28,225 bases of DNA, taken from positions 1-28,225 of the IMG/VR virus record IMGVR_UViG_3300046009_013899; one strand, given 5' to 3'. The notes beneath the pieces were generated by a model. The model saw only the letters and a list, made by a program, of their open reading frames with translations. It made no database searches and had not been told where the DNA came from. This stretch comes from a virus. The translations under genes and the position numbers were made by a program. Below, one piece after another: positions 3,319 through 23,658 of the stretch; within the stretch, counting starts at the first letter, position 1; every line of letters begins with the position of its first letter.

Positions 3319-3875
3319 ATTTTTTTAAACTTAACATAGGCGCGATCTTCCGCTCCATTTTTTATTATTGAAACATCATCTGTTTTAAAACCTTCTCTTT
3401 CCACTAAAACGAGAAACTCCCCGATTGTCCAGTTGTTGTATTCGTATGGATCACTCAGTTTTGATTTTAGTGGTGTAGCTATATATAAGTACTTTCTTAT
3501 TACCCGTCTAGCCTCTCTGATACATAAAGAAGGATCTTTTATGTGTTCCAATGTATCACCCATATAGGCAGATTCAAATTTTTCATCCCTATATGGCAAG
3601 CTACAAGCGTCTCCAATATCAACAAATATTCCAAAACTTCTTGCTAATTCTACTGCCTTTTCACTGCTGTCTATCCCATTAATTCCAAGCATAGAGACTA
3701 AAACACCTTCTCCAGCTCCGATGTCTATTACGCTTTTTTCTTTTATCCAGTCCTTTACCCTGTCTATATGAATACGATATTTTTCTTTGCCTTCATACCA
3801 TCTAAAATGATAAGCTCCATACAAAGAATATTTATCAAAATCTTCTTTGATGATTTTTTCTGTTTCATTTTTCAT
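3315..3875 (-). CDS. Class I SAM-dependent methyltransferase (Methyltransf_11-like)
   Basis: 186 residues. Motif I is VIDIGAGEG (49-57), the acidic residue after beta2 is in GIDSSEKA (67-74), and the beta3 region ends in GDACSLPYRDEKF. FESAYMGDTLEHIKDP follows as motif II, and the 'LEH' signature is typical of Methyltransf_11 enzymes. The protein is shorter than most family members, with a small C-terminal half. The start overlaps the TGA of the upstream glycosyltransferase by ATGA, and its own TGA overlaps the start of the radical SAM fusion, so all three are translationally coupled. The acceptor cannot be read from sequence; membership of this operon suggests a glycan intermediate. Confidence 0.8.
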   Translation of the reverse strand: MKNETEKIIKEDFDKYSLYGAYHFRWYEGKEKYRIHIDRVKDWIKEKSVIDIGAGEGVLVSMLGINGIDSSEKAVELARSFGIFVDIGDACSLPYRDEKFESAYMGDTLEHIKDPSLCIREARRVIRKYLYIATPLKSKLSDPYEYNNWTIGEFLVLVEREGFKTDDVSIIKNGAEDRAYVKFKKI

Positions 3876-4564
3876 ATAAATTTTTCCATAATATTTTTAG
3901 CCTGGCCCCAGTACGGTATTGAATACGCCCTAATCATTCCTCTCCTCTTACGACCATTTTTTTCAAGAGGGTCAATTCCAAATTCATGGTGCAAACAAAC
4001 TATACCAGTGGTTGTGCTGAACTCAATTACTTTTCTTGGAATTAATCCAAGTCTTTTTTCCATTCTTGTTTTACCAACTTCCCCCATTCCTCCTCGCGGG
4101 TCTGGGAAAGGGTATTTAGCAAATCTTTCTTCTAACGCTTCAATCAACAACTCCCTTGGGGCAATTAAAGCGTAATTAGCCAACCTTTTCCTCCAATAAT
4201 ACATAGGAGTATCAAACATATGGATTTGCCACCTAACCATGTTATATGCAAAGGTATCTATCGGTGGCCGATAAAAATTGAAATGTTCATAACAATACAA
4301 AACATCGTCTTCGGCTATAGCTACATATGGAGTGGTGGCAATTTTAGCTGCTCTCAATATTTGCCAATAAATGTTTGCAGTGCTAGGCTCCTCAGCCTGG
4401 ATGAGGTTGACACCGAAGTCCATTGGTTCCTTGCTTACAGAAATAACATCAGCATCACCTATGGCTTTCTTTAGTACATCTAACTGATACTCTGCCCACT
4501 TTTTAGGGACACGGTTGATGGTTAGAAATAAAATTGTTATGTCACGCATTGTGTTATTTTTCAT
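3872..4564 (-). CDS. Putative GT-A-like glycosyltransferase
   Basis: 230 residues from the chosen start. The frame is open to an ATG at 4576, but the ATG at 4564 lies six bases past the stop of the HNH gene and has the local TATATG context used by most genes here. An E-D-D motif sits at 85-87 in VAIAEDDVLY, followed by F-x-F-x-R-P-P, the same layout as in the genes at 52-759 and 1894-3318. The N-terminal strand ITILFLTINR (9-18) resembles the first strand of a nucleotide-sugar fold. The 3' end overlaps the downstream methyltransferase by ATGA. The function is a glycosyltransferase by motif and context; I cannot assign a CAZy family. Confidence 0.6.
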   Translation of the reverse strand: MKNNTMRDITILFLTINRVPKKWAEYQLDVLKKAIGDADVISVSKEPMDFGVNLIQAEEPSTANIYWQILRAAKIATTPYVAIAEDDVLYCYEHFNFYRPPIDTFAYNMVRWQIHMFDTPMYYWRKRLANYALIAPRELLIEALEERFAKYPFPDPRGGMGEVGKTRMEKRLGLIPRKVIEFSTTTGIVCLHHEFGIDPLEKNGRKRRGMIRAYSIPYWGQAKNIMEKFI

Positions 4565-6085: not shown

Positions 6086-6114
6086 AGTATCTTCCTGTAT
6101 TTACTATTTGTCAA
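6086..6114 (-). promoter_or_regulatory. Sigma70-like promoter of glycan operon
   Basis: Read on the minus strand, TTGACA (6109-6114) is a perfect -35 box. A 17-base spacer separates it from GATACT (6086-6091), which keeps four of six consensus -10 bases. Transcription would start near 6079, about 40 bases before the GT2 start codon. The site lies directly after an intrinsic terminator, which fits an operon boundary. Confidence 0.6.
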
Positions 6115-6115
6115 A

Positions 6116-6147
6116 TAAAAAAAACACACCTGATTTGATGTGTTTTT
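6116..6147 (-). terminator. Intrinsic terminator after the structural genes
   Basis: On the minus strand a nine-pair stem AAAAACACA / TGTGTTTTT (6139-6147 with 6120-6128) closes a ten-base loop, and the T-run continues past the stem. It lies 43 bases downstream of the fibre gene stop and immediately before the promoter of the glycan operon. The A-rich outer stem could also work in the plus direction, but nothing on the plus strand needs it. Confidence 0.7.
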
Positions 6148-6155
6148 AAATCATC

Positions 6156-6174
6156 ATCTACAAAAGTAGAAATC
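6156..6174 (-). repeat. Solitary Cas12a (type V-A) CRISPR repeat-like hairpin
   Basis: The minus strand reads GATTTCTACTTTTGTAGAT. Eighteen of these bases, ATTTCTACTTTTGTAGAT, fit the Cas12a direct-repeat handle as I know it (AATTTCTACTnTTGTAGAT), including the UCUAC/GUAGA stem and a four-base U-rich loop. The upstream run of T and A also resembles the 5' half of such repeats. It starts 15 bases after the stop codon of the fibre gene and is followed by about eight bases and then the terminator. No second copy follows at array spacing and no cas gene is present in the window. See the corresponding finding for interpretation. Confidence 0.5.
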
Positions 6175-6189
6175 TTTTTTAAAATCACC

Positions 6190-7119
6190 CTACAGCGAAG
6201 GAGAAACTGATGGAGATGCTGATGGAGATGCCGAAACAGAAGGTGAAACTGATACTGAAGGTGATTTAGAAGGTGAAATTGAAACAGAAGGTGATGTGGA
6301 AGGTGATACGGACGGAGAAAGAGATGGTGATTCAGAAGCAGAAGGAGAAATGGAAGGTGAAATAGAGGTTGAAGGAGAGACAGAAACTGAAGGTGATACT
6401 GACGGAGAAGCAGATGGAGATTCAGAAACAGAAGGTGAAACTGATGGGGAAGCAGAAGGCGAAACAGAAGGAGAAGCAGAAGGAGATGCAGAGGGGGAGA
6501 CTGAAATAGAAGGAGAGACAGATGGGCTAGATGAAATAATAACAACATGATCTGATGTTTTAGGATTAACAATAACAGATTGAGATCCTCTGACTACCAT
6601 GTTTCCGATAGTCATCGCATCAGTCGAGTTATCATATAAATACAAACTTAATGGTCCATGAGGAATAGAACTATCTGCTACTTGGTACACTCTCACAAAG
6701 TTTATAAAAAACTTTACAAACCCAGCTTGCCAGACAATCTTAAAAAATGTATTCGTTCCTTCCCAATCAGAATTCCAAACGATTGTTGGTGATTCGGTTG
6801 TAGTGACTCCATCGCTAGTTTGACAAGTCATATTTTCTCCAATTTTAAATCGGACATATTGAGTTGCACTTGCATTCGATAATCCGAAATACCTAGCAAA
6901 AGCCACATTTGGAGCTGTTCCAACATTTATGTCGAAAGAAACATCTCCTTTTGTGATGTCAGTATAGCTAACCGCAGCACCAGCAACTCCCGTACCTGCT
7001 CCTACTTGTATTCTTCCATTCAAGTCTGAGAATGGAGCACCTGCTAGTGTGTGCCATAGGTTAGTATCATAACCTTGGCGTTGTGTATCATAATTAAAGT
7101 TTTGAAGTATTGAGATCAT
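6190..7119 (-). CDS. Fibre or surface protein with Ser-Pro repeat stalk
   Basis: 309 residues. Residues 1-195 form a globular domain with alternating beta-rich segments, aromatic residues and a G-N-M-V-V ending, reminiscent of a lectin-like or jelly-roll sugar-binding fold; I cannot name the family. Residues 196-309 are a low-complexity stalk of S-P-S-x units with V, I, A, E, T or K at the variable position. Such Ser-Pro stalks occur in phage fibres and secreted surface proteins and are often rigid and extended. The start is 12 bases downstream of a good -10 box, so the message would be nearly leaderless. It is the last of the structural genes before a terminator, which is consistent with a late virion component. 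The repeat creates spurious open frames on both strands. Confidence 0.6.
   Translation of the reverse strand: MISILQNFNYDTQRQGYDTNLWHTLAGAPFSDLNGRIQVGAGTGVAGAAVSYTDITKGDVSFDINVGTAPNVAFARYFGLSNASATQYVRFKIGENMTCQTSDGVTTTESPTIVWNSDWEGTNTFFKIVWQAGFVKFFINFVRVYQVADSSIPHGPLSLYLYDNSTDAMTIGNMVVRGSQSVIVNPKTSDHVVIISSSPSVSPSISVSPSASPSASPSVSPSASPSVSPSVSESPSASPSVSPSVSVSPSTSISPSISPSASESPSLSPSVSPSTSPSVSISPSKSPSVSVSPSVSASPSASPSVSPSL
6193..6534 (-). repeat. Degenerate 12-base tandem repeat encoding S-P-S-x
   Basis: About 340 bases made of related GGA/GAA-rich units (plus-strand view), which encode repeated Ser-Pro-Ser-x in the fibre gene. Codons vary while the peptide pattern is kept, so the repeat is old enough to have diverged at silent positions. 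Repeat number probably varies between relatives. Confidence 0.8.
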
Positions 7120-8646: not shown

Positions 8647-9351
8647 CTATGCACCCAAACTAGATGCAGGTGTCCACTCCGGGGACACAATATTATGTTT
8701 GAACTTTTCTGCGACTTTTACGCACATTTCTATAAATTGATCTGTGGTTTGGATTGTCTTAGATCTATTGCATCTTCCACAGCATGGTACAATATTATCA
8801 GGATTATATCCAAATTTAGGATCTTTTCTGTCTAGTCCTATTCCTTTTATTTCATCTCCGCAATAGTAACATGGCTTTTCCCAATACAACATGAATTCTT
8901 CGAAGGATAGTGCAAAATCTATTTTTCTGACTTTTGCACTTGACCTATAGGTTTGGAATCTATGGGCAGGAGTGTTTTTATCTCTAACCCCCCTAGCATT
9001 ATGACATACACGACACTCATGTGATCTTCCCATAGAGGCCCTCCTGTTTTTATTCCTACCAAACTCGCCTAGGGATTTTTTTTCATGACAGACATAACAT
9101 ATTCTTGTCATATTAATAATGTCAGTTGTAATCTTTCTACCTTCCACTATCGGACGATATTTTTTCCGCTTTAACTGATTAGCGTCCTGACAAGAATCAC
9201 ACCGGCATCCCTTAGAATAATACCAAGCTGTTCCGTGCCCTTTTATTGGAGATTCAGTACGATATACAGATTTAGCCTTCTTACACTTTTCACATCGGCA
9301 TCCTTTGTTATACTCTTTTGCAGTTCCATGTTCTCTTGGTTTTTCAAACAT
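8647..9351 (-). CDS. Free-standing HNH endonuclease with N-terminal zinc-binding repeats
   Basis: 234 residues. The N-terminus has two similar zinc-knuckle units, HGT-x-x-x-Y-x-KGCRC-x-x-C at about 9-24 and 39-54, and a third C-x2-C pair at about 85-120. The C-terminal HNH domain reads PCYYCGDEI, then GLDRKDP, then NIVPCCGRCNRSK, with all zinc cysteines and the histidine-substituting D-R-K-D region typical of this HNH subtype. The ATG lies inside one arm of a 21-base inverted repeat whose other arm is in the last codons of the gene. It stands between the major capsid gene and the next structural gene, and I see no group I core around it, so it is probably a free-standing homing endonuclease that targets a relative of this locus. 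Confidence 0.85.
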   Translation of the reverse strand: MFEKPREHGTAKEYNKGCRCEKCKKAKSVYRTESPIKGHGTAWYYSKGCRCDSCQDANQLKRKKYRPIVEGRKITTDIINMTRICYVCHEKKSLGEFGRNKNRRASMGRSHECRVCHNARGVRDKNTPAHRFQTYRSSAKVRKIDFALSFEEFMLYWEKPCYYCGDEIKGIGLDRKDPKFGYNPDNIVPCCGRCNRSKTIQTTDQFIEMCVKVAEKFKHNIVSPEWTPASSLGA

Positions 9352-9438: not shown

Positions 9439-12400
9439 CTATGCACTGACCCCCTTCAAAAGTGAATGTCTAGGTGCCTGTTTTCGTTCCAAACCTACTT
9501 CAGAAATATATTGATCGATCTCTCCATCAACATCTGGAGCTTGAATGTTTGTCATTAATTGAGTGTCTCTAGCTTCCATGTATCGATATCGGAAACATTC
9601 CATATCAAGCAAGTAAGCTTGTCCAGCCAATTCTTCAACAAACAATGGGTTATGAACAATATTTACTGTTCCAAACGCTGTTTGCCATTCTGAAATTCTA
9701 ACGCCATAGGTAGTATCACCAGTCTTTGTAAGAATTTGTCCACGAGCAATTTCATTGATTGCTTGTAATACAAGTCCTCCGCAAAACAAAACTTTGGTGC
9801 TATTTCCATATGTAAATCCTTCACGAAGGAAGTTGTTAAGATCAGGAGCAGTCAATGGACCACCTTGATTTTGAACAAACGAACTTCCAGCAGAAATGAA
9901 TTCATCAATACCTCCAGTTGCTCGACGAGCATATGTAGAAGTATCAGCGTTCTTCTGACCAAACCAAAACGCTCTTTCGATGTCCAGCGCGTGTTCAGTT
10001 CCCTTCTTAGCACGTTGAAAAGGGAGATCTTTTCCGCCGTATAAATTAGCGGCTTTTTCTGTTCCAGAAACTGCAATGCTAGTTTTAAAAATCTGGCAAT
10101 AATTGCTTTGAGCAGCAGAACGAGTTGTGTTTACGTTTCTTGCTCCAGTATTTTCAGCACTTGCATTTCCAACAATAAACAATCCATCACCAGCTAAAAT
10201 AGCTGCTGCAGGAGTAGCTCCAAAGGAGTTTGTCACTGCAATAGTATTCCCGTCAGTGATTGCTGTTACTAGCATGTTTTCGCTAGTTCTAGCATTTCTA
10301 ACAATATCTCCAACCGTGAAGATATATGCTGGATTAGCTCCAGCTCCAGTCACATCGATCGATCCAGCAGAAGCTGATTCAGCTTTAGCTGCTCTAGCGT
10401 AGCGACCACCATAGACGTCTTCAACTTTCTTGTTACCCTAATCAGGGGACACATCATTTCTGTGTGTCTCTGTGCTTTCGTTTGTTATAGGCACAGATCG
10501 GACTGTCGCTTCACAATGACATATCACATTGTGTCTCTTCACTCAGTCTCTGCAGGTCCCTTTCGGGTTCCTGAGGGTTATCCGCTTCCGGACTTTCCCC
10601 ATTAATCAGAAGAGATTTTAAAATGGCTTGAATGTGTCTACCATTTAAATTCTGGATTCATTTCTTGTTACATCGGATCTCTCCGAGAGTCAATCATTTC
10701 TGTTGACTTCTGTATGTCTCCATACAGATCAGACTCTATCTTCTCATTGCGTTTTGTCAGCCACCTTGATTGTGTTTCAAGTTGCCGCGCAAGAGTCTTA
10801 CGTATAGTCGTTGAGATATCGTTAGAACCTAATTCATTAAGCTCTCTTAGTTGCTCTGCACAAACATATTCTCTGTCTGTGTAGGGAATCCTCTTGCCAT
10901 TCTTACGGCTCATAGCTCGTGATAGAGAGAATTCTTTTAGCAATTCCAATTGAAGCTTCTTTGAGACTATAAAAGGAGAAATCATTTCACAAAATTTCAC
11001 AATTTCAGTGAAACGACATACCTGCACGACATATCGGCGCTTGTGTTTCTTCGACCCTTCTTTTCTATCGCTTATATAATAAGCGATATTCAGTTGGTCT
11101 AGGATTAAACAACATTCGTCAATAATGTCTACTGAGGTATTTTCCATTGTTAGCTTCGGAGTCAACCCGAATTTCATTTCACGATTTCGGTATTCTCTCC
11201 TATTCTGTCTTACGATGGAAAATGTTCCTTCTCCGTCCCAAATGCCTGCTAACCAGGCTTTTTTTAGTTCTACCGTTATCTGCTGGTTGTCTCTATTCAT
11301 AATATTGTTACATATAAGTAATTATGACTTAACGAGATATTCTAGCAAATAGTAAGATTTTAGACCAGCCTCCATAATTAACCGGTCACTGCCTTCATGA
11401 TACTTGAACCTTGCCAAGCTTTACCCTAGTATGTTAGCTGCATGTTACCATGCAGATCGGACTATATCATCATTTATTTACATTAAGTTAAGCAAATAAA
11501 GTTCGGCGCTATTTGAAGTATTATGTTCTACTTATAAAGTAGTTTCAACCTCTAGTCTCTACACCTTCACATGTCTTTTAAACATGTGCTTGGCTCGGGA
11601 TTGTCCATCATTTTAAATGGAGTTTCCCCGAATTCACCGAATTATTGCCCTATAATCGCTTATAGGCGGGACAGTAAAATTTATCCCAAACTTTTCCAAC
11701 GTTCGTAAGCACATTATTGTTACACCATTTATATTGGTGGCGTGGTCATTTCTGCCACACTCTGCATGTCTCCATGCATGTTCGGACTATATCATACCGT
11801 TATTTAACGGTCCCAGCGTGTAGTCTCTGAGGATTTCGATTTTTCAATGTTTAAGTTTTTTTAACTCATCAATTAATGCAATTTCTTCGTCTGAATATTC
11901 TGCTCTACCAGATCCTTTTCTATTACCTCTACCTTCCATCTTTTTTTCACGAGATAATATGAATTTCATGACGATATCCATTTGTTCTCCTTTAACAAAC
12001 ACATAAGGACGAACTAAATTAATAAACTGCTTAACTTGAGTTTTTCCAGATAAACCAACATCGTAAAGATCCTTTACGGCTGTTCCATCTGTTCTTTTTT
12101 GATTTCTTCTTACACCTTTCCTGCAACTTATCCAACATTTTATTCCAGCAGAACTCAATTCGTTTTTTATGAATTCTAACGGCTTTATATCAGTGTTGCT
12201 AAGTCTGACTGAAGGGAGAATATTTCTATCATATGTTCCATCAATCTTCAAATGAGTTTTTTGTAAACCCATTCCGATATATCCTTCCCCATCGAAGAAA
12301 CCTCCAATATAACTTAAAAAATCGATCTTTCCTGCGGATTGTCTCATATCCATAAGATTTTTACTTAATAATAAGTACTTATGGCTTAGCGAGATGTTCC

Positions 12401-14880
12401 CGCATATAGCTAGGTTCTCTTAAGATATTAAGTATAACTTAATTGTATCTTAAGACGCTGCTTTTGTCAACGTTACGAGCGGATGCTTATTTGGCTCAAG
12501 TAGAAATATTTTCGTTTTGTTATCATGGCTTTTTTAATTACCATTTCTGCATATTACTATGCAGTCCAGACTATATCATCATCCAATCATATTGGATGGC
12601 CGGTGCTCGTGGAGTTTTTATATTCTTTCCTAAAACAGAAAGTTTCAAACTCTAGTCGTTACACGTTACGTTTTCATTTAGAAAACATCTTCGTTCGGGA
12701 TTGTCCATATAGGAGTTTCCCCGAATTCGCCGGCTTTGCTAACAGAATCTCTTCTGTAAGGGACATCGGTTGACTGTTTATGCAGTATATGTTAATATTC
12801 TATTATAATTATTAAATATACTAATATGATTAAAATTTGCGTTTTTTGCAATAAAGAATATGAAGTAACACGTGGATGTGCTATCAAAAAGAGTAAATAC
12901 TGTTCTCCTAGTTGTCACCATTCTTTTTGGCTTAAAAAAGGAAATAAATCTGGAAAATTTTTAGGAAATAAATTATCTCTAGGTAAAAAAATTCGAGAAA
13001 ACGAAACTCTTTCTAATGAACAAAGACAAATAGTATTTGGCACGTTATTAGGAGATGCTAGTATAGACTTATCTCGTGCTGGTTCTTCTTCTTTACGCTA
13101 TCAACATTCTGAAAAAAACTTAGACTATGTTTTATTAAAAAATAAATTTTTACAAAACTTTATAGTCAGAGAATTCCCAACTTTATCAAAGGCTCGAATT
13201 TGTTCTAAAATTAACGATATAGATGTAATAAGCAAGGCTTCATATACCGGATCGACGGTTACTCATCAAGATTTTAATGAAATAGAAAAACTATTTTACA
13301 TAAAAACCAGTAATGGTCGTCTTAAGATATTTACTCAAGAAATTGCTAGTCACATCACTATTCTTAGTATATTATTTTGGTATATGGATGATGGAACATT
13401 GTCTCCTCATAAAAAGAGTCCTTCTCGTTATTTTATCAATCTAAGTACTAATAATTTTTCGTATGAAGAAAATATTCTCATACAAAAAATGTTTTTAGAA
13501 AAATTCAACGTTCCTGCAAGCATTTACCTTATAAAATCTCAGAATAGATACTACATTCGATTTAACTCTGACAGTGCTGATATTTTAATGAACTTATTCT
13601 CTACTTTTGGAAAATATATTCCCGCAAGCATGAATTACAAATTTACATTTCTTAAACAGTAACCTTGTATTTATCCACTGCATCTACGATCATTCTACCT
13701 TCTGCTACTGAAACAGTTGTGTCTCTAGCAGCTGAAGTTACCGCTCCCTGATCATGGGTCGGTTCTGTGTAATTGATTATATTTTATAAGTGAGTTTTAA
13801 TTCTGCTCACTACCTACGTTTTCACGTAGGGCTAGACTGGCTCATAAAACCTATTCCATTAAGGTTTTTCCTGCGTACAGTCGTTGAGGTTGACACTGTT
13901 TCGGCTTTTTGTTACAATGGAGACATGAAAACATGTAAACATTGTAGCAAGGAATTTGCCGCTAAAGGTAAAAAATTATTTTGCACCGTAGCTTGCCAAC
14001 AAAAAAATTGGGCTATTTTACGAAACAAAAGTGGGAAACATACAAAGGACTCTAGGGATGCTGGTATACTTATCAGATCTATCAAGCCTACAGACCGCCA
14101 AAAAGGGATCATACTAGGAGCAATGATGGGTGATTCCAGTATCACTCAGAGGGAAAACGGAACTTGCCGCCTTCGTCTTTGTTGTGGAGAAAAACAAAAA
14201 GATTATCTTGAGTGGAAGAAAAACGAACTTAAAGAATTCATTGTTCAGAAAGAAGCTATTCGCTCAGTAGGAAGTGCTTTTGGCACAACTACTGTTGGAT
14301 TTTCTTATGATACAGTAATACATCCATTTTTTCAAGAATTGTTTCCAAAATTTTACGTCCGTTATGGAGGAAAGAAAAGAAGGACATTTGATATGAACAT
14401 TCTTAATCAACTCACACCTTTATCCGTACTTATATGGTTTCTTGATGATGGATGTTATTATTTCAATAAGAAGAAATCTGATCACTCTCTTTACTTATCT
14501 ACCTGTCGTTATTCTTTATCTGAGATTCAAATGATGAAGAAGTGGTTTTGGCATACATGGCACATTGAGTCTGTTATTTATTATGACAAAACTCATGACA
14601 CTAATTACCTTCACTTTCGTCGTGTCTCTCAGTTTCAATTTAATAATTTATTTCTTAAACCTTTTAAGGAAATAATTCCTTCCTGTATGTATTACAAGTT
14701 TCCTAACTTTTGACCTAAATAAACAGTGTCTTACCTGCGGATTGTCTCTATTCGTAGAATTTTTAGTTTTCGCCGCCAAGTTTTTATCTCAGACGGTATC
14801 CTACCTACGACTTAACGAGAGTTTCCCGCATATAGCAAGATTTTATATCCGCATTACGTTTACGGATATGTTGTACTCAT
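9439..14880 (-). CDS. Major capsid protein gene, seven exons split by six group I introns
   Basis: Reconstructed exons in order: 14862-14880, 13669-13752, 12470-12523, 11683-11711, 11381-11425, 10640-10658 and 9439-10424. They total 1236 bases, an exact multiple of three, giving 411 residues from MSTTYP to KGVSA. Each 5' exon ends in U, which pairs with G of an internal guide sequence 10-12 bases further on. Each intron ends in G. Several 3' exons pair with the guide loop (P10), best at the 4th, 3rd and 6th introns. The joined protein restores the family motif NPEFKW-FEDVYGGRYAR across the last junction and HPLVT-LLTNVGK across the third. The body (YCQIFKTSIAVSGT, then KGTEHALDIERAF) matches HK97-fold capsids of the DUF5309/SU10-like type. 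The 3' splice site of the first intron is the least certain. Confidence 0.8.
10425..10639 (-). ncRNA. Group I intron 6, no open reading frame
   Basis: 215 bases. P1 pairs exon AAATGGT with guide GCCATTT, and P10 pairs exon TTGAA with TTCAA directly before the guide, so both splice sites are well supported. Core elements: AATGGGGAAAGTCCGG (10585-10603), P7 strand GAGACTGAGTG (10540-10553) and GCGACAGTCCGATC (10495-10512). It ends GGTAACAAGAAAG. Confidence 0.85.
10659..11380 (-). ncRNA. Group I intron 5, core overlapped by its endonuclease gene
   Basis: 722 bases. P1 pairs exon GACCGGT with GCTGGTC, and the intron opens with TAATTATGGAG, close to the T4 td start. TAGAATATCTCGTTAAGTC (about 11330-11350) corresponds to the P3/P4 block of introns 1 and 3. 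P7 strands are AAGACTCTTGCGC (10787-10800) and GATAGAGTCTGATC (10725-10740), both inside the endonuclease gene. It ends AACAAGAAATG before the 19-base exon. Confidence 0.8.
10668..11300 (-). CDS. LAGLIDADG homing endonuclease in intron 5
   Basis: 210 residues. One clear LAGLIDADG motif, AWLAGIWDGEGTFSI, at about 14-28, with the catalytic acidic residue kept, so the enzyme probably acts as a homodimer. Basic residues are frequent in the centre, fitting DNA contact. The start codon lies in the P6 region of the intron (AATAGAGACAACCAGC), and the last 50 or so codons run through both P7 strands and the P9 hairpin, stopping nine bases before the 3' splice site. The C-terminal residues are therefore constrained by RNA structure as well as protein. 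In homing, such enzymes cut intron-less alleles so that the intron is copied in by repair. Confidence 0.85.
   Translation of the reverse strand: MNRDNQQITVELKKAWLAGIWDGEGTFSIVRQNRREYRNREMKFGLTPKLTMENTSVDIIDECCLILDQLNIAYYISDRKEGSKKHKRRYVVQVCRFTEIVKFCEMISPFIVSKKLQLELLKEFSLSRAMSRKNGKRIPYTDREYVCAEQLRELNELGSNDISTTIRKTLARQLETQSRWLTKRNEKIESDLYGDIQKSTEMIDSRRDPM
11426..11682 (-). ncRNA. Group I intron 4, no open reading frame
   Basis: 257 bases, a minimal ribozyme. P1 pairs exon GGGAT with guide GTCCC. P10 pairs exon GGTAAA with TTTACT, six pairs, which fixes the 3' splice site. The core block GAATTCGGGGAAACTCC ... GGACAATCCCGAG (11596-11636) is nearly identical to intron 2. P7 strands are GAGACTAGAGG (11550-11564) and GATGATATAGTCCGATC (11455-11470), followed by a P9 hairpin TGCATGGTAACATGCA. 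Confidence 0.9.
11712..12469 (-). ncRNA. Group I intron 3 with sense endonuclease gene
   Basis: 758 bases. P1 pairs exon ACGT with guide GCGT, and P10 pairs exon TGCTT with AAGCA of the guide loop. TATGCGGGAACATCTCGC (about 12388-12406) and AGACAATCCGCAGG (about 12330-12345) match intron 1. P7 strands are GAGACTACACGC (11816-11832) and GATATAGTCCGAA (11781-11798). The endonuclease gene runs from the P6 region to just before P7. Confidence 0.85.
11844..12353 (-). CDS. LAGLIDADG homing endonuclease in intron 3
   Basis: 169 residues, short, with a single motif FLSYIGGFFDGEGYIGMG at about 12-29 that keeps the acidic residue, so it is likely a homodimer. The ATG overlies the conserved AGACAATCCGCAGG element of the intron, as in the endonuclease of intron 5, and the two proteins share the layout motif, then a long basic helix-rich part, then K/R-rich C-terminus. 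The stop TGA lies just before the P7 strand at 11816-11832. Expression would come from the late capsid transcript or from an unseen promoter. Its target is presumably the exon 3 to exon 4 junction in relatives. Confidence 0.85.
   Translation of the reverse strand: MDMRQSAGKIDFLSYIGGFFDGEGYIGMGLQKTHLKIDGTYDRNILPSVRLSNTDIKPLEFIKNELSSAGIKCWISCRKGVRRNQKRTDGTAVKDLYDVGLSGKTQVKQFINLVRPYVFVKGEQMDIVMKFILSREKKMEGRGNRKGSGRAEYSDEEIALIDELKKLKH
12770..12798 (+). promoter_or_regulatory. Promoter of antisense endonuclease gene in intron 2
   Basis: TTGACT (12770-12775), a 17-base spacer and TAATAT (12793-12798) preceded by TG one base upstream, an extended -10 form. The predicted start is near 12805, giving a leader of about 20 bases to the ATG at 12826. 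The -35 box lies in one arm of the intron P2 stem. Confidence 0.55.
12826..13662 (+). CDS. LAGLIDADG endonuclease (two-motif type), antisense in intron 2
   Basis: 278 residues on the opposite strand to the capsid gene. The N-terminus has a zinc-finger-like C5-x2-C8 ... C-x3-C arrangement (KYCSPSCHH at 26-34). Two LAGLIDADG motifs are visible, IVFGTLLGDASI at about 68-79 and ILFWYMDDGTL at about 184-194, so it is a monomeric enzyme of the LAGLIDADG_2 type. It is homologous to the antisense gene in intron 1. It has its own plus-strand promoter (12770-12798) in the loop-closing stem, and its stop codon lies in the other arm of that stem. Its last codons also contain the complement of the guide sequence of the intron. 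Confidence 0.85.
   Translation: MIKICVFCNKEYEVTRGCAIKKSKYCSPSCHHSFWLKKGNKSGKFLGNKLSLGKKIRENETLSNEQRQIVFGTLLGDASIDLSRAGSSSLRYQHSEKNLDYVLLKNKFLQNFIVREFPTLSKARICSKINDIDVISKASYTGSTVTHQDFNEIEKLFYIKTSNGRLKIFTQEIASHITILSILFWYMDDGTLSPHKKSPSRYFINLSTNNFSYEENILIQKMFLEKFNVPASIYLIKSQNRYYIRFNSDSADILMNLFSTFGKYIPASMNYKFTFLKQ
13890..13918 (+). promoter_or_regulatory. Near-consensus promoter of antisense endonuclease gene in intron 1
   Basis: TTGACA (13890-13895), exactly 17 bases, TACAAT (13913-13918). Only six bases separate the -10 box from the ATG at 13925, so transcription probably starts at or next to the start codon and the message would be leaderless. The box positions also argue for 13925 rather than the open frame upstream. 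Confidence 0.7.
13925..14713 (+). CDS. LAGLIDADG endonuclease (two-motif type), antisense in intron 1
   Basis: 262 residues from MKTCKHC. The frame is open to a GTG at 13790, but that extension covers the P7 and P9 elements of the intron and precedes the promoter, so it is rejected. An N-terminal zinc-finger-like unit has C4-x2-C7 and later FCTVAC. The two motifs are GIILGAMMGDSSI (about 57-69) and VLIWFLDDGCYY (about 170-181), each with its acidic residue. The protein is homologous to the antisense gene of intron 2, with the same zinc finger, spacing of motifs and C-terminal Y-K-F ending. Both are read against the capsid gene from their own promoters, which would allow early expression independent of late transcription. 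Confidence 0.85.
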   Translation: MKTCKHCSKEFAAKGKKLFCTVACQQKNWAILRNKSGKHTKDSRDAGILIRSIKPTDRQKGIILGAMMGDSSITQRENGTCRLRLCCGEKQKDYLEWKKNELKEFIVQKEAIRSVGSAFGTTTVGFSYDTVIHPFFQELFPKFYVRYGGKKRRTFDMNILNQLTPLSVLIWFLDDGCYYFNKKKSDHSLYLSTCRYSLSEIQMMKKWFWHTWHIESVIYYDKTHDTNYLHFRRVSQFQFNNLFLKPFKEIIPSCMYYKFPNF

Positions 14881-17344: not shown

Positions 17345-20300
17345 TTACTTCTTTCTGTTCTGAAGGGATAAAGCTTGATTGAGAATGTTCGAGCTAACAC
17401 TTGATGGCTTGCTAGAAGGTATATTAGTATCAACTCTTCCTCCTGTAGCCCTATTATGTCCTGCTATGTTTGGTATATTTGAACTCCATGTAGATTTATC
17501 TTGAGCTTGTACTCCTTTTGGAGTCGGTGGAATACCCATATTATTTAACAAGTTTACAGGATTGGCCATTTGTCCGTATGGGCTAACTTCACTTCCATAA
17601 TTTTCTCCAGTTCTTCTTAAGTGCTTTGTAACATTACGCAAAGAAGATTTCGGTATCATACTATAGCCTGGTCCGCCCATACCAGATATTGGTGCTGGTG
17701 GAGCAGGTGGCATCATTGGAATTCCAGCAGGAGGCATACCGGCGCCTGCTGAAGGAGCTAATCCAGATGCGCTAGGCTGTCCATCTGGCCCAACAGGCGC
17801 ATCTGGTGTAGTTGTTTCGTCTTTCGTAACACCATCCAATGACCACCCCCAATCCGATATAACGCGAGAAGTTAGTTTCTGAGGATCAACAAAAGGAAGG
17901 TTTATTAAAAGTTGATAAAGATCCATGTCCTGCTTCTTCTTAACCTCTCCATCGCCAGCTATTGATGGTAGAACTTTCGCTTTGTAATCAAAATAACCAT
18001 TCAAGTCGTCTTTTTCAATTAAAGGAAATTCTGGTTGTCCATTTTTTCCTATAATTCGAATTGTCATTTGTTCACTAAATAATTGCCTACTCATATCCAT
18101 CCAATATCTTAAAACGTCAGAATAAGCATCTCCTAAATGATTTACAAACATTCTAACTCTTTCTAATGTAGATTCTCGCAAATGCCTAACTTCTGTGGCG
18201 CTACTTGATCCGCCACCTACTCCTTGAGAAAAATCATCTACACCAGAGGCATATTGCATGTCTCCCTTTAAAAGTTCCTCTTCTTTGTATGCCGATGGCT
18301 TGATATCGCTAAATTGTATTTCACGTACACCATTAGGATCTACTGAATAGATTATACCAAACGGGCGAGTTACTAATTCGTCCTTATTAACATTCGCCAA
18401 TGGGTTAACGATCCACATCTTATGAATTGACAATGTAGCCGCGTCAAGTCGTTGATTTTTAACTAAATTTAGCATTATTTGTGGACTCTCTAATATCATA
18501 GGCAATCCATATCCCTCAAACTCACCTGGTATTTTTAAATAAGCAGCCTCTATAAAAGGAGCCTCCTTGAAGTCCATAGGGATGGGCATAACTCCATCTT
18601 TAAAGATAGGAACATAACTTCCCCCAACCATGACTGCGTATGCATCATCAAACGGTCTCCACCACTCGTATACTTCATACATTTTTACAGTAACATCTTG
18701 AGTATTTCTATATTTATCATATTCAGCTATTTGACCAGCAAAACCTGCGGTAGCCGCTGAAGATTTTGTTGTATAAATGTTTGTTGTTCTAACTCTTTGT
18801 CTAATAGCAGCATAATCTGTAAGATCCCCTCCAGGAGCCTCAAGAGCTAATTGTAATCTTTTCTTATCCGCCATTGGGTATCTTCTGACCAGTTCTGCTC
18901 TAGTTAGAACTAATCTCTTAAGCCAGTATTGTTTGCTTTGTCTGGCTGTGTTATGCCAATCATACCATAAATTATAGTTGTCTACCCATTCGCACATTGG
19001 GCCGTCAAAAAAAACTCTCTCCTCTTGTTTCCATTCATACTTCTTGCTCGTGATATCTTTGCTTCTCAAAAATTTCAACTTTCTAACATCCTTTTTCCAG
19101 CTAACCTGTAAAAAACCAGTTCCATAAATAAGGGTCGATCTAACGAAATCCTCATTTGTCCTATCCATATTCGCCCTCTCCCAATTGTAGTCCATTAGCT
19201 TAACTTGTTTTTCGGCTTTAGCTTGATCATCTTGGTTCCTTCCTACGACAGTAAACTCTGGTCTTGCGTCTACGATCCTAGGAACCATCGTCTCAACAGC
19301 AGATTGAATATATGGAATCTGAACGTTAGAATTTCCTGTAATAAAAATAAGTCCGTTTCTTTTTGCTATATAGTTAGTATTTCTAGTAGAAATACTCCAT
19401 ACTTTTCCTTTATAAGCAACCTTACGTATGTTTTTTTTACCTTGCACACATACAGAGTTGCTGTATGCAATATTTGCATACTTATCAGTAATAACGCTAC
19501 GCATACCAACGAGATGAACGAGAACTTGTAACCATTCTAGGAAATCTTTTTTAGGCTTTGTCACCATATGGTATTTTCCGTCTGGGCGCAAAGAACCATC
19601 TCCGAAACAAATTCCATCAAGAAGCCTACGCTTTTCACTCAATGTTAATTTCCATAATAAGTTGTTGGGCTTTCTATCAGGAACCCACTCAAGCATTTTC
19701 TTAACAACATCTCCGTTGCTTGGAAAATAAAATCTATGCTCATCATGGTAATGATCCATTTCCTTCTTCCTAGACCATTCTCTATATTCAACACCCAAGG
19801 AGATTATAAGATTTCTTAATCTAATAAGAGTTTCTGGTTTTGATTGCGTTATATAGGCTTGTTTTGAGTTTTTAGGAAAACAACCGTCAGTTAAAAACCA
19901 ACCGATTAGTTCTGCCCAATCTCCGCTTCCTGTTGACAGCTCACCATCATAGGAACCACTTAATGGTAATTGATAAACAGATCCACTATCTAAAAGGTCA
20001 CATGATTGAACGTATTGGAAGTTGTCATCCCAAATATGTTCTCGCTGATCCGCCTTAAGTATATTTATAATTGTTTTTTTTACTTTTTTTCCTTTTTTTA
20101 ATAGGACACGGTGATTACCAGTTAAAAGTTGATCTGTATTTGACTGTTTTATAGAAATCATCTCACCGTCAAAATCATAGCTAAATTCATCTTGAGCTGT
20201 ATCAATTTCTATCATTTTTGTTTCTGGATTGAAACTAAAAACAGACTCACCATTAGAAATTTGACCTATTTTTTTCCAACCTTCTGGTGAAAGTATTTCT

Positions 20301-20512
20301 GTATCCTCACTGACGCATTGCCACTTCTTTATTTCCCGTTGCCTGTCACCTCCATAAGCGATATAAAGCTTATATGACCTGTCTAGCCTGGGCTTTATCA
20401 CATTTAAGAAATATTGGCGTGAATCGTCACGTTGAAGAACGAAGAGTCTCCTCAGCTCAACTTCCTTGTCCCCATATTGGAATGGGCTATACATGTTTCC
20501 GTATTTTTCCAT
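17345..20512 (-). CDS. Portal protein with an intein
   Basis: 1055 residues as translated; about 726 after intein removal, a usual size for large portal proteins such as the P22 type. The intein spans residues 66-394. Downstream, YGTGFLQVSWKKD, then FFDGPMCEWVDNYNLWYDW, then a region with repeated short strands and the helical VRHLRESTLERVRMFVNHLGDAYSDVLRYW (read here as separate blocks) fit the wing, stem and crown regions of portal rings, which form the dodecameric channel for DNA. The final 170 residues are rich in P, G, S and N and include the GMGGPGY motif also seen in the neighbouring protein; such tails vary widely between phages. The gene follows terL with an 86-base gap, the usual order. 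Confidence 0.85.
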   Translation of the reverse strand: MEKYGNMYSPFQYGDKEVELRRLFVLQRDDSRQYFLNVIKPRLDRSYKLYIAYGGDRQREIKKWQCVSEDTEILSPEGWKKIGQISNGESVFSFNPETKMIEIDTAQDEFSYDFDGEMISIKQSNTDQLLTGNHRVLLKKGKKVKKTIINILKADQREHIWDDNFQYVQSCDLLDSGSVYQLPLSGSYDGELSTGSGDWAELIGWFLTDGCFPKNSKQAYITQSKPETLIRLRNLIISLGVEYREWSRKKEMDHYHDEHRFYFPSNGDVVKKMLEWVPDRKPNNLLWKLTLSEKRRLLDGICFGDGSLRPDGKYHMVTKPKKDFLEWLQVLVHLVGMRSVITDKYANIAYSNSVCVQGKKNIRKVAYKGKVWSISTRNTNYIAKRNGLIFITGNSNVQIPYIQSAVETMVPRIVDARPEFTVVGRNQDDQAKAEKQVKLMDYNWERANMDRTNEDFVRSTLIYGTGFLQVSWKKDVRKLKFLRSKDITSKKYEWKQEERVFFDGPMCEWVDNYNLWYDWHNTARQSKQYWLKRLVLTRAELVRRYPMADKKRLQLALEAPGGDLTDYAAIRQRVRTTNIYTTKSSAATAGFAGQIAEYDKYRNTQDVTVKMYEVYEWWRPFDDAYAVMVGGSYVPIFKDGVMPIPMDFKEAPFIEAAYLKIPGEFEGYGLPMILESPQIMLNLVKNQRLDAATLSIHKMWIVNPLANVNKDELVTRPFGIIYSVDPNGVREIQFSDIKPSAYKEEELLKGDMQYASGVDDFSQGVGGGSSSATEVRHLRESTLERVRMFVNHLGDAYSDVLRYWMDMSRQLFSEQMTIRIIGKNGQPEFPLIEKDDLNGYFDYKAKVLPSIAGDGEVKKKQDMDLYQLLINLPFVDPQKLTSRVISDWGWSLDGVTKDETTTPDAPVGPDGQPSASGLAPSAGAGMPPAGIPMMPPAPPAPISGMGGPGYSMIPKSSLRNVTKHLRRTGENYGSEVSPYGQMANPVNLLNNMGIPPTPKGVQAQDKSTWSSNIPNIAGHNRATGGRVDTNIPSSKPSSVSSNILNQALSLQNRKK
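19331..20317 (-). mobile_element. Intein in portal protein, with LAGLIDADG endonuclease domain
   Basis: 329 residues (66-394), inserted between Q65 and S395. Block A is CVSEDTEIL; block B has T-G-N-H near 131-134. LAGLIDADG-like blocks are ELIGWFLTDG (201-210) and LLDGICFGDG (297-306), both with the acidic residue, so the endonuclease may be active. The last two residues are G-N rather than the common H-N, followed by Ser as +1 nucleophile; a Gly at the penultimate place occurs in some inteins but can slow Asn cyclisation. Confidence 0.85.
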
Positions 20513-20598: not shown

Positions 20599-23500
20599 TT
20601 AGTATGAAAAGTTAGATGGCAACTCTTTTTCATAGTCAACTTGCTCCAATGCTCCACCAAACATAACTTTAAATCCTTGTAGGCATATAGCACTCGCGAA
20701 AATACAGTCATCATGAAATCCTGATTGAGCAACCATATCTCCGCCGTCATTAAACGTAAACGTTAACATTTCATCTATTGTAGCTTCAGTGTGAATTTTT
20801 AAACTCATGTCTGATAATCCTTCCCTTAAATCATCTATCATCAACGGTCTAGTTATTTTTGTAGTTTTCCAGCCGAGTCTATCAGAAAACCGTGTCCCCA
20901 TCACGTCCATCTTAACAACGGGCCTAAAATAAAGACGCGGATACATTTTATTTCTAATGGCGGTAACAGTGGAAATTCCGTGATTGTTTATTTCCACTAC
21001 CATCAACGCTTCATTAAAAAATCGTCCTATCTTGTCAAGAAGATGTCCAAACCTATCTGGAGCCATATGCCCACGCCAGAAAGCTACCTCATCCCCAGTT
21101 GTTCTGTCAAATATAGTGAAAACAGAATAATCACCACCGGTCACCCCCTCCGCGACATCAGCTCCAACAATATAATTGTGACCAGGTTTAGGTTTAAAAT
21201 AAATAATAACTTCATCTTCATTTTTTTCTACAACAGATTCTGCTCCAGCGTCATCTTTAACTTTTTGTCCTAAGTGAAAAACTCGTGACCTGAGTATTTT
21301 TATCAACGCAGATGGAAAAACAGGTCTTCCTGAAGCTAAAAATTCCAACCCATACTCCTGAGAAAATCTCATTGGATTGTTTATACGTTTTTTTATTATT
21401 TCTATTTGCTCTTGTGAATATCCCCACCACCACCCATATTTTTTTTTGCAGTAATCATTGTCGGACATCCACATCCTGTGATACTGGTTTCCCATGCCGT
21501 TCGGAGTTGACTCCACCACAATCTTCCCATTTTGTGGTACGGCATTTTCAATGGCAAGCATTTTCTCAGGTGCTTTATCCCAGAAGGCAAGCTCCGTGCA
21601 ATTATGTACCACTCCAGAATGAGTCAAAAAAGAATGCGGTTCTTTGTCTAACACAATATCATAGACAAATTCTTCCCTTTCTGTCTCACACACAGACCTG
21701 ACCTTCATCCAATAATGGAATCTTCCTCTCAACCATGACCTCCATCCATAATTTCTACCTGGATCATTTTCTTGTATCCATCGAAATCTACCATTATTGT
21801 AAACAGGGAGCCTGAAACCCAATTTTCTTCTAAATTTATAGTTCCCATGACCACTCAGGGACAGTGAATATACTTTATTACCAGGAGCCCCGTAGAGAGT
21901 TGACTCGCTAGATTGTATTGACGCTAAGCCTATTTTTAGAGAAACAAGCAATTTCTTAACCTGATACACTAACGCTGGACTTATTGACCTCAGCACAACC
22001 TTCCTATCATCGCTCTCTTGGAAGTATCCATCACCTAAAAATACTCCACGCAGAAACCCATACCCGAATTCCCAGCCGTAATACCAGCAGGAATCATTTA
22101 TTGTTTTGTTTAAAGCACCTGATCCAAATTTTTCTATCAAAAAACTAGATATTTGTTGCGATGTAATAGTAATAACTGAACTGAGACTACCAGACCGCCT
22201 ATCAACACTTATTTTTCCCAGTTCATTCCCAAAAACCGTTTTAATCAAAGAAATTAAATATTCTTCCTCTTTTCTATTTATTGAAAAAGAAATCCTTCCT
22301 TCCCTTACAAATCCTTTGGCAGAAAACCATCCACAAAATTCCCCGAAATCTCTATTTATTTCCACCTTTCCTATTTTTATAAATGACCCTGTTTTTACAG
22401 GATATAACGAAAAATCTATTTCCCTGAAACGATTCCTCATTTGGAAATAAGGATATGCTATGAAATCATTCTTTCTTATGTCCAAAGCTCTTTTCCAACC
22501 GTCTTTTGTTAGAATTTCATGATTTTCTGTTGTTTTTAATAAACCATCCGCCCCAACCACGTCTATTGCGAGCATCCTTTCGGTAGACTTCTTTTTTATT
22601 ATATTCCTTACAACAGAACCGCCACCATTTCCATTAATAACCTTACTCCCTTTTGTTATATCGGAAACCCTAACCGGTTTTCCATTTTCTCCGAAAACAA
22701 CAGTATCCCCTGACACGCACAAAACATTGTGTAAAGTGTACCCACGCCCCACATTTTCGCTGGAAGGTAACACTAATATCTTAGAATCAATTGCTGGAAA
22801 ACTTATTTCATACTTTGAATTATATTGTATTTTTGGCCTGATTGCTTCCGGAGTTGTTCTCCAGAAAGTTTTAACTTTGTCCAACAATTCAGCTGTTAAG
22901 TCTGAATTATACCCAATCAATGCAGTATTTGTCCCTGGCGTTGTGATGGTGTTATGATAAAGATAGCCTACTGCGGCTGTAGAATTATGAGACACAAATC
23001 CTTCTGCAATATAAGTATGTTCAGAAGTCTGTAAGTCTACCATATTAACAGAGGAAACTGCTTCCAGAGAGACGATCTTTGAAAACCACCCCTGTGGTAA
23101 TGTTTTCCCCTCCCATCCATTTTCTAACGTCACTTTACCCAAAACGGCGGGTATGCCTTTGATAACGTCTCCAATTTTCATATCTTCTATTTTTTCCCAA
23201 GCGTACTCCATATTGCTTTCCAATTTTTTTGACAATAACTTATGTTCCTTTGTTCCTACTAGGGAAACACCATTATCCAGAGTAATTTTTATCCCTGGTG
23301 ATTTAAAAGAAAATTTCTTTTCTACTATTGCTGCTTTCATTTTTCTTTGTAAACTTACCTCATGTATATTTTCGTCTACAGACACGACCTCATCTCCGAT
23401 ATTAACATCTTTTAATTCTACCCACGCTAGGTTTGACAATAATATTTTAGTGTGTTCTGACAAGCAAAAACCAATTTGCCGAGCTTTAAGTATGATCACC

Positions 23501-23658
23501 CGCGAATTTTCATTTATTGCGTTAAAAAGATCACATTGTGCATCGTTTAAAATAAAAGGTACGAGACCAGGTGTTTTTCCTTTTATCTTTGTGAAATATT
23601 CCAAATATTTTTTAGGATCACGTATTATTTCTAATAATTTCTTGTCTTCAGGTTTCAT
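20599..23658 (-). CDS. terL: Terminase large subunit (TerL) with two inteins
   Basis: 1019 residues as translated, about 485 after removal of both inteins, which is normal for TerL. The ATPase P-loop is KARQIGF (58-64) joined to S226-T227 after splicing of intein 1. The acidic motif is H-N-V-L (310-313) joined to C687-T-E-L-A-F, with E689 as the likely catalytic glutamate, so intein 2 splits it. The RNase H-like nuclease follows: VGADVAEG with D834, VVEINNHG with E889 and FHDDCIF with D983/D984. These motifs are the packaging motor and headful or site-specific cutter. The gene begins 10 bases after the probable terS stop and precedes portal. Both inteins must splice for the ATPase to form, so timing of late packaging depends on protein splicing. 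Confidence 0.95.
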   Translation of the reverse strand: MKPEDKKLLEIIRDPKKYLEYFTKIKGKTPGLVPFILNDAQCDLFNAINENSRVIILKARQIGFCLSEHTKILLSNLAWVELKDVNIGDEVVSVDENIHEVSLQRKMKAAIVEKKFSFKSPGIKITLDNGVSLVGTKEHKLLSKKLESNMEYAWEKIEDMKIGDVIKGIPAVLGKVTLENGWEGKTLPQGWFSKIVSLEAVSSVNMVDLQTSEHTYIAEGFVSHNSTAAVGYLYHNTITTPGTNTALIGYNSDLTAELLDKVKTFWRTTPEAIRPKIQYNSKYEISFPAIDSKILVLPSSENVGRGYTLHNVLCVSGDTVVFGENGKPVRVSDITKGSKVINGNGGGSVVRNIIKKKSTERMLAIDVVGADGLLKTTENHEILTKDGWKRALDIRKNDFIAYPYFQMRNRFREIDFSLYPVKTGSFIKIGKVEINRDFGEFCGWFSAKGFVREGRISFSINRKEEEYLISLIKTVFGNELGKISVDRRSGSLSSVITITSQQISSFLIEKFGSGALNKTINDSCWYYGWEFGYGFLRGVFLGDGYFQESDDRKVVLRSISPALVYQVKKLLVSLKIGLASIQSSESTLYGAPGNKVYSLSLSGHGNYKFRRKLGFRLPVYNNGRFRWIQENDPGRNYGWRSWLRGRFHYWMKVRSVCETEREEFVYDIVLDKEPHSFLTHSGVVHNCTELAFWDKAPEKMLAIENAVPQNGKIVVESTPNGMGNQYHRMWMSDNDYCKKKYGWWWGYSQEQIEIIKKRINNPMRFSQEYGLEFLASGRPVFPSALIKILRSRVFHLGQKVKDDAGAESVVEKNEDEVIIYFKPKPGHNYIVGADVAEGVTGGDYSVFTIFDRTTGDEVAFWRGHMAPDRFGHLLDKIGRFFNEALMVVEINNHGISTVTAIRNKMYPRLYFRPVVKMDVMGTRFSDRLGWKTTKITRPLMIDDLREGLSDMSLKIHTEATIDEMLTFTFNDGGDMVAQSGFHDDCIFASAICLQGFKVMFGGALEQVDYEKELPSNFSY
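21601..22719 (-). mobile_element. TerL intein 2, endonuclease domain partly degenerate
   Basis: 373 residues (314-686), from CVSGDTVVF to GVVHN with C687 as +1 residue. Block B has T-x-x-H (TTENHEIL, 377-383). The second LAGLIDADG block LRGVFLGDGY (536-545) keeps its acidic residue. The first block FCGWFSAKGF (441-450) has K where the catalytic D or E should be, so double-strand cutting is probably lost. The insertion is in the ATPase acidic motif of TerL. Confidence 0.85.
22984..23466 (-). mobile_element. TerL intein 1, mini-intein in the P-loop
   Basis: 161 residues (65-225), from CLSEHTKIL to FVSHN with S226 as +1 residue. Block B is GTKEHKLL (T136, H139). It has no room for an endonuclease domain, so it is a mini-intein that can splice but not home by itself. 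The insertion point is inside the Walker A motif, a frequent choice for inteins because the site is invariant. Confidence 0.9.

Follow-up and report, generated by a model that had tools for sequence, protein, structure and literature searches.

Six predicted group I introns in the SU10-type major capsid gene of an uncultured tailed phage

The window analysed here is a stretch of 28,225 nucleotides (positions 1 to 28,225 of IMG/VR virus record IMGVR_UViG_3300046009_013899), and it contains, with high confidence, a SU10-type major capsid gene, from an uncultured tailed phage, that is split on the minus strand by six group I introns (Table 1). The genes around it are also marked by insertions. 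Two intein-type insertions seem to be present in the large terminase, one with a Hint region near residues 60-150 and one with Intein_splicing and LAGLIDADG_3 domains at residues 330-686, and the SU10-type portal protein seems to contain an insertion with a LAGLIDADG_3 domain. As insertions are found in each of them, the terminase, portal and capsid genes have all been invaded by mobile elements. The gene directly 3' of the capsid gene possibly encodes a free-standing endonuclease, and further downstream lies a gene for a protein with a long repeat tail. A PHROGs search of nine neighbouring structural proteins gave no match.

Table 1. Position and strand of the features of the capsid locus and its neighbours (window coordinates; a slash marks a splice site)
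Feature	Position	Strand	Details
Major capsid gene	14880-9439	-	seven exons
Exon 1	14862..14880	-	19 nt; ATG; MSTTYP + first base of Y; frame matches uninterrupted relatives
Intron 1	14861-13774	-	1088 nt; site YP/YY; last base A; R1 match 13811-13889, E = 5e-10
Intron 1 endonuclease (LAGLIDADG_2)	13925..14713	+	antisense to capsid gene; PF03161, E = 1e-23
Sigma-70-like promoter, TTGACA-17-TACAAT	13890..13918	+	directly upstream of intron 1 endonuclease gene; near-consensus
Exon 2	13673..13773	-	101 nt; YYTEPTHDQGAV...IVDAVD, matches relatives
Intron 2	13672-12513	-	1160 nt; site VD/KI; P7.1-type core; RF00028 84.8 bits; R1 E = 4e-8
Intron 2 endonuclease (LAGLIDADG_2)	12826..13662	+	antisense; PF03161, E = 6.5e-28
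Exon 3	12470..12512	-	43 nt; KIFLLEPNKHPLVT
Intron 3	12469-11712	-	758 nt; inside codon L54; RF00028 31.7 bits; R1 E = 8.5e-14
Sigma-70-like promoter, TTGACA-17-TACAAT	12442..12470	-	near-consensus; first bases of intron 3, before its endonuclease gene
Intron 3 endonuclease (DGEG-type LAGLIDADG)	11844..12353	-	sense; BLASTP E = 8e-20 to L040 KD/LP intron endonuclease
Exon 4	11683..11711	-	29 nt; LTNVGKVWD
Intron 4	11682-11426	-	257 nt; site D/GK; no ORF; RF00028 87.9 bits
Exon 5	11381..11425	-	45 nt; GKAWQGSSIMKAVTG
Intron 5	11380-10659	-	722 nt; site G/NP; RF00028 37.6 bits; R1 E = 6e-12
Intron 5 endonuclease (LAGLIDADG_3)	10668..11300	-	sense; PF14528, E = 6e-6
Exon 6	10640..10658	-	19 nt; NPEFKW + 1 base
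Intron 6	10639-10425	-	215 nt; inside codon F85; no ORF; RF00028 20.9 bits; R1 E = 6.5e-4
Exon 7	9439..10424	-	986 nt incl. stop; EDVYGG onwards; other three quarters of protein; PF17236, E = 2e-50
Open C-terminal ORF	9439-10353	-	304 aa; member of PF17236
Gene directly 3' of capsid gene	8647-9351	-	endonuclease VII / HNH families; PHROG 1035, E = 1.5e-22
Protein with long SPSVSPS-type repeat tail	6190-7119	-	second open frame 6111-6572 across same stretch
Portal gene	17345-20512	-	domain matches
Large terminase gene	20599-23658	-	domain matches

Joined in order, the seven exons form a continuous frame of 1242 nt that encodes 413 amino acids. The preliminary description of this DNA had likewise placed six minus-strand segments within a single frame, but its joined length of 1236 nt and 411 residues is corrected by the exon boundaries given here. 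Its statement that gene calling would report only the C-terminal 304 residues was accurate. The joined protein matches PF17236 with 184.4 bits over residues 29-411 (cut-off 24.1), compared with 172 bits for the C-terminal ORF alone. Homologues of this family in cultured phages are only about 23-31% identical to the window protein. Relatives were collected by scanning viral contigs with the C-terminal frame, with a full-length alignment and with a C-terminal alignment independent of the N-terminal introns, and the junctions were set by comparison with the intronless relatives, not by motif alone. The joined protein is collinear with uninterrupted capsid proteins of 412-425 amino acids, which were found in at least 20 contigs (e.g., L001, L002, L007, L010, L019 and L029). 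The capsid protein of L001 is 87% identical to that of the window, and the window exons fit onto it in the order of Table 1 without any indel.

The small exons have diverged from L001 in the same manner as the large one, with dN 0.098 and dS 1.41 for exons 1-6 (computed without the first codon of exon 1) and dN 0.086 and dS 1.60 for exon 7. As the two ratios are similar, purifying selection acts on the small exons just as it does on the remainder of the gene.

Concentrating on the interrupting segments, a covariance search with group I models, the check proposed in the preliminary description, confirmed its assignment of a group I core to each of the six. With the Rfam model RF00028, only introns 4 and 2 scored above the gathering score and the other four fell below it, intron 1 reaching about 20 bits at each end. 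We also built a covariance model, R1, from the P7-P8-P9 halves of 14 introns of the relatives, with no window sequence included, and searched the whole window with it on both strands, unfiltered. R1 gave six matches, one per segment and all on the minus strand (E = 8.5e-14, 6e-12, 5e-10, 4e-8, 2e-7 and 6.5e-4), while the next match had E = 0.88. When applied to loci with an uninterrupted capsid gene, R1 found nothing significant except for one weak minus-strand match inside another gene of contig L098. In addition, P4/P5 blocks were read directly in all six introns; intron 4 folds with a z-score of -5.3 and displays P1, P2, P4-P6, P7.1/7.2, P8 and P9, and the fold of intron 6 has a z-score of -3.6. 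The R1 matches, the exact interruption of a conserved protein and the guide and P10 pairings described below together support the identification of all six segments as group I introns.

As introns 6 and 1 are weak in Rfam and the endonuclease genes of introns 1 and 2 lie on the opposite strand, an alternative hypothesis is that some segments are insertions of other kinds, such as endonuclease genes with intron remnants, nested introns or an assembly chimera. We regard this as very improbable, since each segment contains a single R1 match at the expected place and its own guide sequence, the exon pieces follow one another in order and in frame, antisense endonuclease genes in group I introns are already known (e.g., in myxomycete rDNA introns, PMC9548176), and site-matched introns exist in other contigs for intron 1 (L040, L104 and L118) and intron 4 (L009). 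An assembly chimera in particular was ruled out by the order and frame of the short exons and by contig L068 from another metagenome, which is 99.955% identical to the window over 6645 nt and spans exon 1 and the 5' half of intron 1; introns 2-6 are present in one assembly only.

The boundaries of the group I introns were finally defined by P1/P10 analysis and direct reading of the sequence. Junctions placed automatically from protein score and P1 alone were wrong for introns 4 and 5 and ambiguous for the introns at the F/ED site of the clade. In all six introns, the upstream exon ends in U, paired with a G of the guide sequence. The P1 helices containing this U.G pair comprise 8 bp in intron 1, where the end of exon 1 pairs with the internal guide sequence GCGGATAT, 4 bp in intron 3, 6 bp in intron 4 and 7 bp in introns 5 and 6. 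The P1 of intron 2 is short (GGAU with GUCC, then a mismatch, as judged by eye), and here the endonuclease gene is inserted between the P1 strands, the insert being closed by an inverted repeat, GGTTACTGTTTA...TAAACAGTCAACC, also recognized by eye. Perfect P10 pairings with the downstream exon, running on from the nucleotide beside the guide G, were found in intron 1 (GTAAT with ATTAC, 5 bp), intron 3 (AAGCA with TGCTT, 5 bp), intron 4 (7 bp) and intron 6 (TTCAA with TTGAA, 5 bp); chance alone would produce a single 5-bp P10 in about 0.7% of cases. In intron 5, the P10 recognized by eye is offset and 4 bp long, and no P10 was found in intron 2. The joined junctions predicted in this way are CCGT/ATTAC, GGAT/AAAATATTT and ACGT/TGCTT for introns 1-3 and GGGAT/GGTAAAG, CCGGT/AATCC and TGGT/TTGAAG for introns 4-6; across the first of them, exons 1 and 2 would read CCGT/ATTACACAG in the DNA and MSTTYPYYTEPTHDQGAVTSAAR in the peptide.

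The U and G splice ends of the preliminary description thus hold for the U at every 5' site and for the terminal G of introns 2-6, but not for the terminal G of intron 1, whose last base is A because the frame and P10 both require the junction CCGT/ATTAC. A junction at a G was sought and rejected: there is no G within 20 nt upstream, and G sites as far as 30 nt upstream, or shortly downstream, of the intron end lead to a stop or a frameshift, with the exception of CATG/ATCAG. This cryptic site (CCATG/ATCAG) keeps the frame in the window as well as in L040 and would give an intron that ends in G. However, its use would produce a capsid protein without YTEPTHD, a loss of seven residues, all of which the window retains and most of which do not vary within the clade, and its P10 would comprise 2 bp, against 5 bp at the A. 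We therefore consider splicing at the cryptic G improbable.

The three other introns known at the YP/YY site provide a comparison for the A-ended reading of intron 1. Those of L104 and L118 end in G and carry their endonuclease genes in sense orientation, whereas the homologous intron of L040 ends UCA/AUCAC, also with A. L040 is a genome of 86-89 kb recovered in two assemblies that are identical across the 17.5 kb compared, and its endonuclease at this site and that of intron 1 are both antisense and only about half identical (52% over the alignment; 49% by BLASTP). Since the same-site intron of L040 also ends in A, the terminal A of intron 1 is not a sequencing error of a single contig. The two A-ended YP/YY introns also share two features of the core: the last pair of P7 is G-C instead of A-U, and a C precedes the 3' strand of P7, at the J8/7 position equivalent to A306, where L118 has A. 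In Tetrahymena, A306 is one of the bases of the base-triple stack by which the G-binding site holds the terminal G (PMC10020454). As a conjecture, these changes in P7 and J8/7 might offset the terminal A in the introns of the window and L040.

The terminal A could instead be read as a sign that the 5' quarter of the gene is decaying, with at least one intron, first of all intron 1, no longer splicing and a shorter frame giving rise to the capsid protein. With the G-binding pair of P7 unaltered, the A is not obviously compensated, and an in-frame ATG in exon 2 (residue 33) could start such a frame. This explanation seems unlikely to us, if marginally less so than the cryptic G, as purifying selection is equally strong on exons 1-6 and on exon 7, the residues right after the intron 1 junction (YYTEPTHDQG) are conserved, and the L040 intron has kept the same ending, UCA/AU, beside an endonuclease that is only about half identical.

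An end in A is also the best reading for the introns at the T/Q site of L040 and the EP/NK site of L039, where an in-frame downstream G is possible at the price of one or two conserved residues. On this reading, the four A-ended introns end at window position 13774, L040 3666, L040 6303 and L039 5810, and all four have a strong promoter-like site upstream of the endonuclease gene. A search for further A-ended homologues by the P7/J8/7 pattern and endonuclease profiles found only L040 and its identical copy. Taken together, these comparisons tentatively suggest that there is a lineage of group I introns that are functional with A in place of the near-universal terminal G, a proposal to which we give somewhat less than an even chance. 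The group I intron database paper states that introns end 'most frequently' in G, and A-ended exceptions may have been catalogued already. A published natural A-ended group I intron was not found in our literature search, outside which most subscription journals lay, and as far as this search showed, the conserved terminal A is new. The A-ended introns beside G-ended homologues at one site are natural pairs in which the terminal-G rule could be tested.

LAGLIDADG endonuclease genes are present in four of the six introns (1, 2, 3 and 5) and absent from introns 4 and 6. The intron 3 endonuclease has no match in Pfam, and no relative of the intron 2 endonuclease was found in the viral contigs. 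The frame of the intron 5 endonuclease crosses its own P7-P9 core almost to the 3' splice site, so that ribozyme and protein share sequence. Two of these genes are preceded by sigma-70-like promoter sequences (Table 1), and the L040 homologue of intron 1 has TTGACA-17-TATAAT at the matching place; promoter-like sites in front of intron endonuclease genes were located in L040 at 3535-3563 (-) and 3897-3925 (+). Of the 23 endonuclease genes borne by introns, six are preceded within 130 nt by a promoter-like site that agrees with the consensus at 11 or more of the 12 positions, while dinucleotide shuffles gave a mean of 0.1 such genes and never more than two in 1000 trials. Promoter-like sites are thus in clear excess before intron endonuclease genes. 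A consensus match is no proof of a promoter, and the use of these sites by the endonuclease genes is suggested by their sequence and placement. The endonuclease genes of at least two window introns seem to be served by promoters of their own and could therefore be expressed independently of capsid transcription.

Introns are widespread but patchy in the capsid genes of the relatives, and the clade is an intron hotspot. One capsid intron each was found in L003, L006, L036, L096, L104 and L118, and several in L009 (two), L039 (three), L014 (four) and L040 (five), whereas L001 and L002, the nearest relatives of the window, have none. In total, the clade has about 15 insertion sites, mostly within the first 85 codons. 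On a capsid tree built from the last part of the protein, in which L118 could not be placed, the presence of introns changes 10 times for 10 intron-bearing rows, and well-supported branches force at least seven changes. Endonucleases that share an insertion site are more closely related to one another than to any others (57-72% identity at EP/NK, 52-53% at F/ED and 43-54% at T/Q), as expected for homing. The grouping of the endonucleases by site and the patchiness of the introns on the capsid tree may reflect site-specific spread between lineages. The orientation of the endonuclease gene has flipped within site lineages, because both orientations occur at T/Q (sense in L014, antisense in L039 and L040) and at YP/YY (sense in L104 and L118, antisense in L040 and the window). 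The homologous introns at T/QIF (L014 5992-7009, L039 6966-8000 and L040 5117-6303) encode one endonuclease family in opposite orientations, and thus the gene was inverted within this intron lineage. A direct duplication of about 700 nt with about 72% identity was also noticed in relatives, downstream of the capsid gene (L074 9063-9744 and 9910-10590).

On the basis of these data, we propose that the capsid gene would be transcribed into one precursor mRNA of about 5.4 kb, in which the guide sequence of each intron would pair with the end of the upstream exon and an exogenous G bound in P7 would cut there. Alignment by P10 would be followed by ligation of the exons, and six such self-splicing events would yield the 413-aa protein; the splicing of all six introns is what their cores and pairings predict. 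The LAGLIDADG endonucleases, whose activity and homing are likewise deduced from sequence, may cleave the intronless capsid alleles that co-infecting phages bring in, and the intron would be copied into them during repair. In this way, each lineage may have gathered its own set of introns, distributed over about 15 sites of which most lie in the first 85 codons.

Late in infection, a phage requires its capsid gene product in many copies. The capsid gene of the window nevertheless tolerates six ribozymes and exons down to 19 nt, while its two nearest sequenced relatives are intronless. The relatives and the window form a natural series of 0, 1, 2, 3, 4, 5 and 6 introns in one orthologous phage gene, with which intron accumulation, endonuclease drive and the cost of splicing could be tested. 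For annotation, it is of importance that gene calling overlooks the N-terminal quarter of capsid proteins encoded in this way.

Compared with known systems, the kind of arrangement described here is familiar, and our literature search gave no earlier case of six introns in one phage gene. Within the papers covered by that search, six exceeds the number reported for any phage gene. The preliminary description had called six in one phage gene exceptional, which stands against the published phage genes (up to three introns, or four interruptions in a crAss-like phage) and is tempered by the 12 of a giant virus. In Bastillevirinae, DNA polymerase and terminase genes contain up to three group I introns per gene (PMC11878797), and orf142 of phage Twort contains three, with exon skipping (Landthaler and Shub 1999, cited in PMC11878797). 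These genes resemble that of the window in having several group I introns and very small internal exons, but differ in that their splicing is proven by experiment, that they have at most three introns per gene and that they are not capsid genes. Two or three fragments are also reported for the terL genes of Jug phages (PMC12363816).

The major capsid gene of a crAss-like phage of the Zeta group is broken into five ORF fragments (PMC7886860). This gene, like that of the window, is split by several group I introns in genomes that are also rich in inteins; in contrast, it has four interruptions instead of six, three of its four segments encode intron-type domains, and the phage belongs to a different group. 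No report of a terminal-A intron was found for this capsid gene. In mycobacteriophage LittleE, the capsid gene has an intron with an antisense endonuclease gene, and its splicing was confirmed by N-terminal sequencing (PMC3706429). LittleE thus shares with the window a group I intron in a phage capsid gene and an opposite-strand endonuclease gene, but it has a single intron with an HNH endonuclease and is an unrelated phage.

The richest case is that of Faustovirus E12, in whose major capsid gene five of the 12 introns belong to group I (PMC6247863). Similarly to the window, it is a many-exon major capsid gene with endonuclease genes in some of its introns; unlike the window, it belongs to a eukaryotic giant virus, its other seven introns are spliceosome-like and its endonucleases are of the GIY-YIG type. 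Beside eukaryotic giant viruses, six introns in a major capsid gene are less exceptional than they are among phages.
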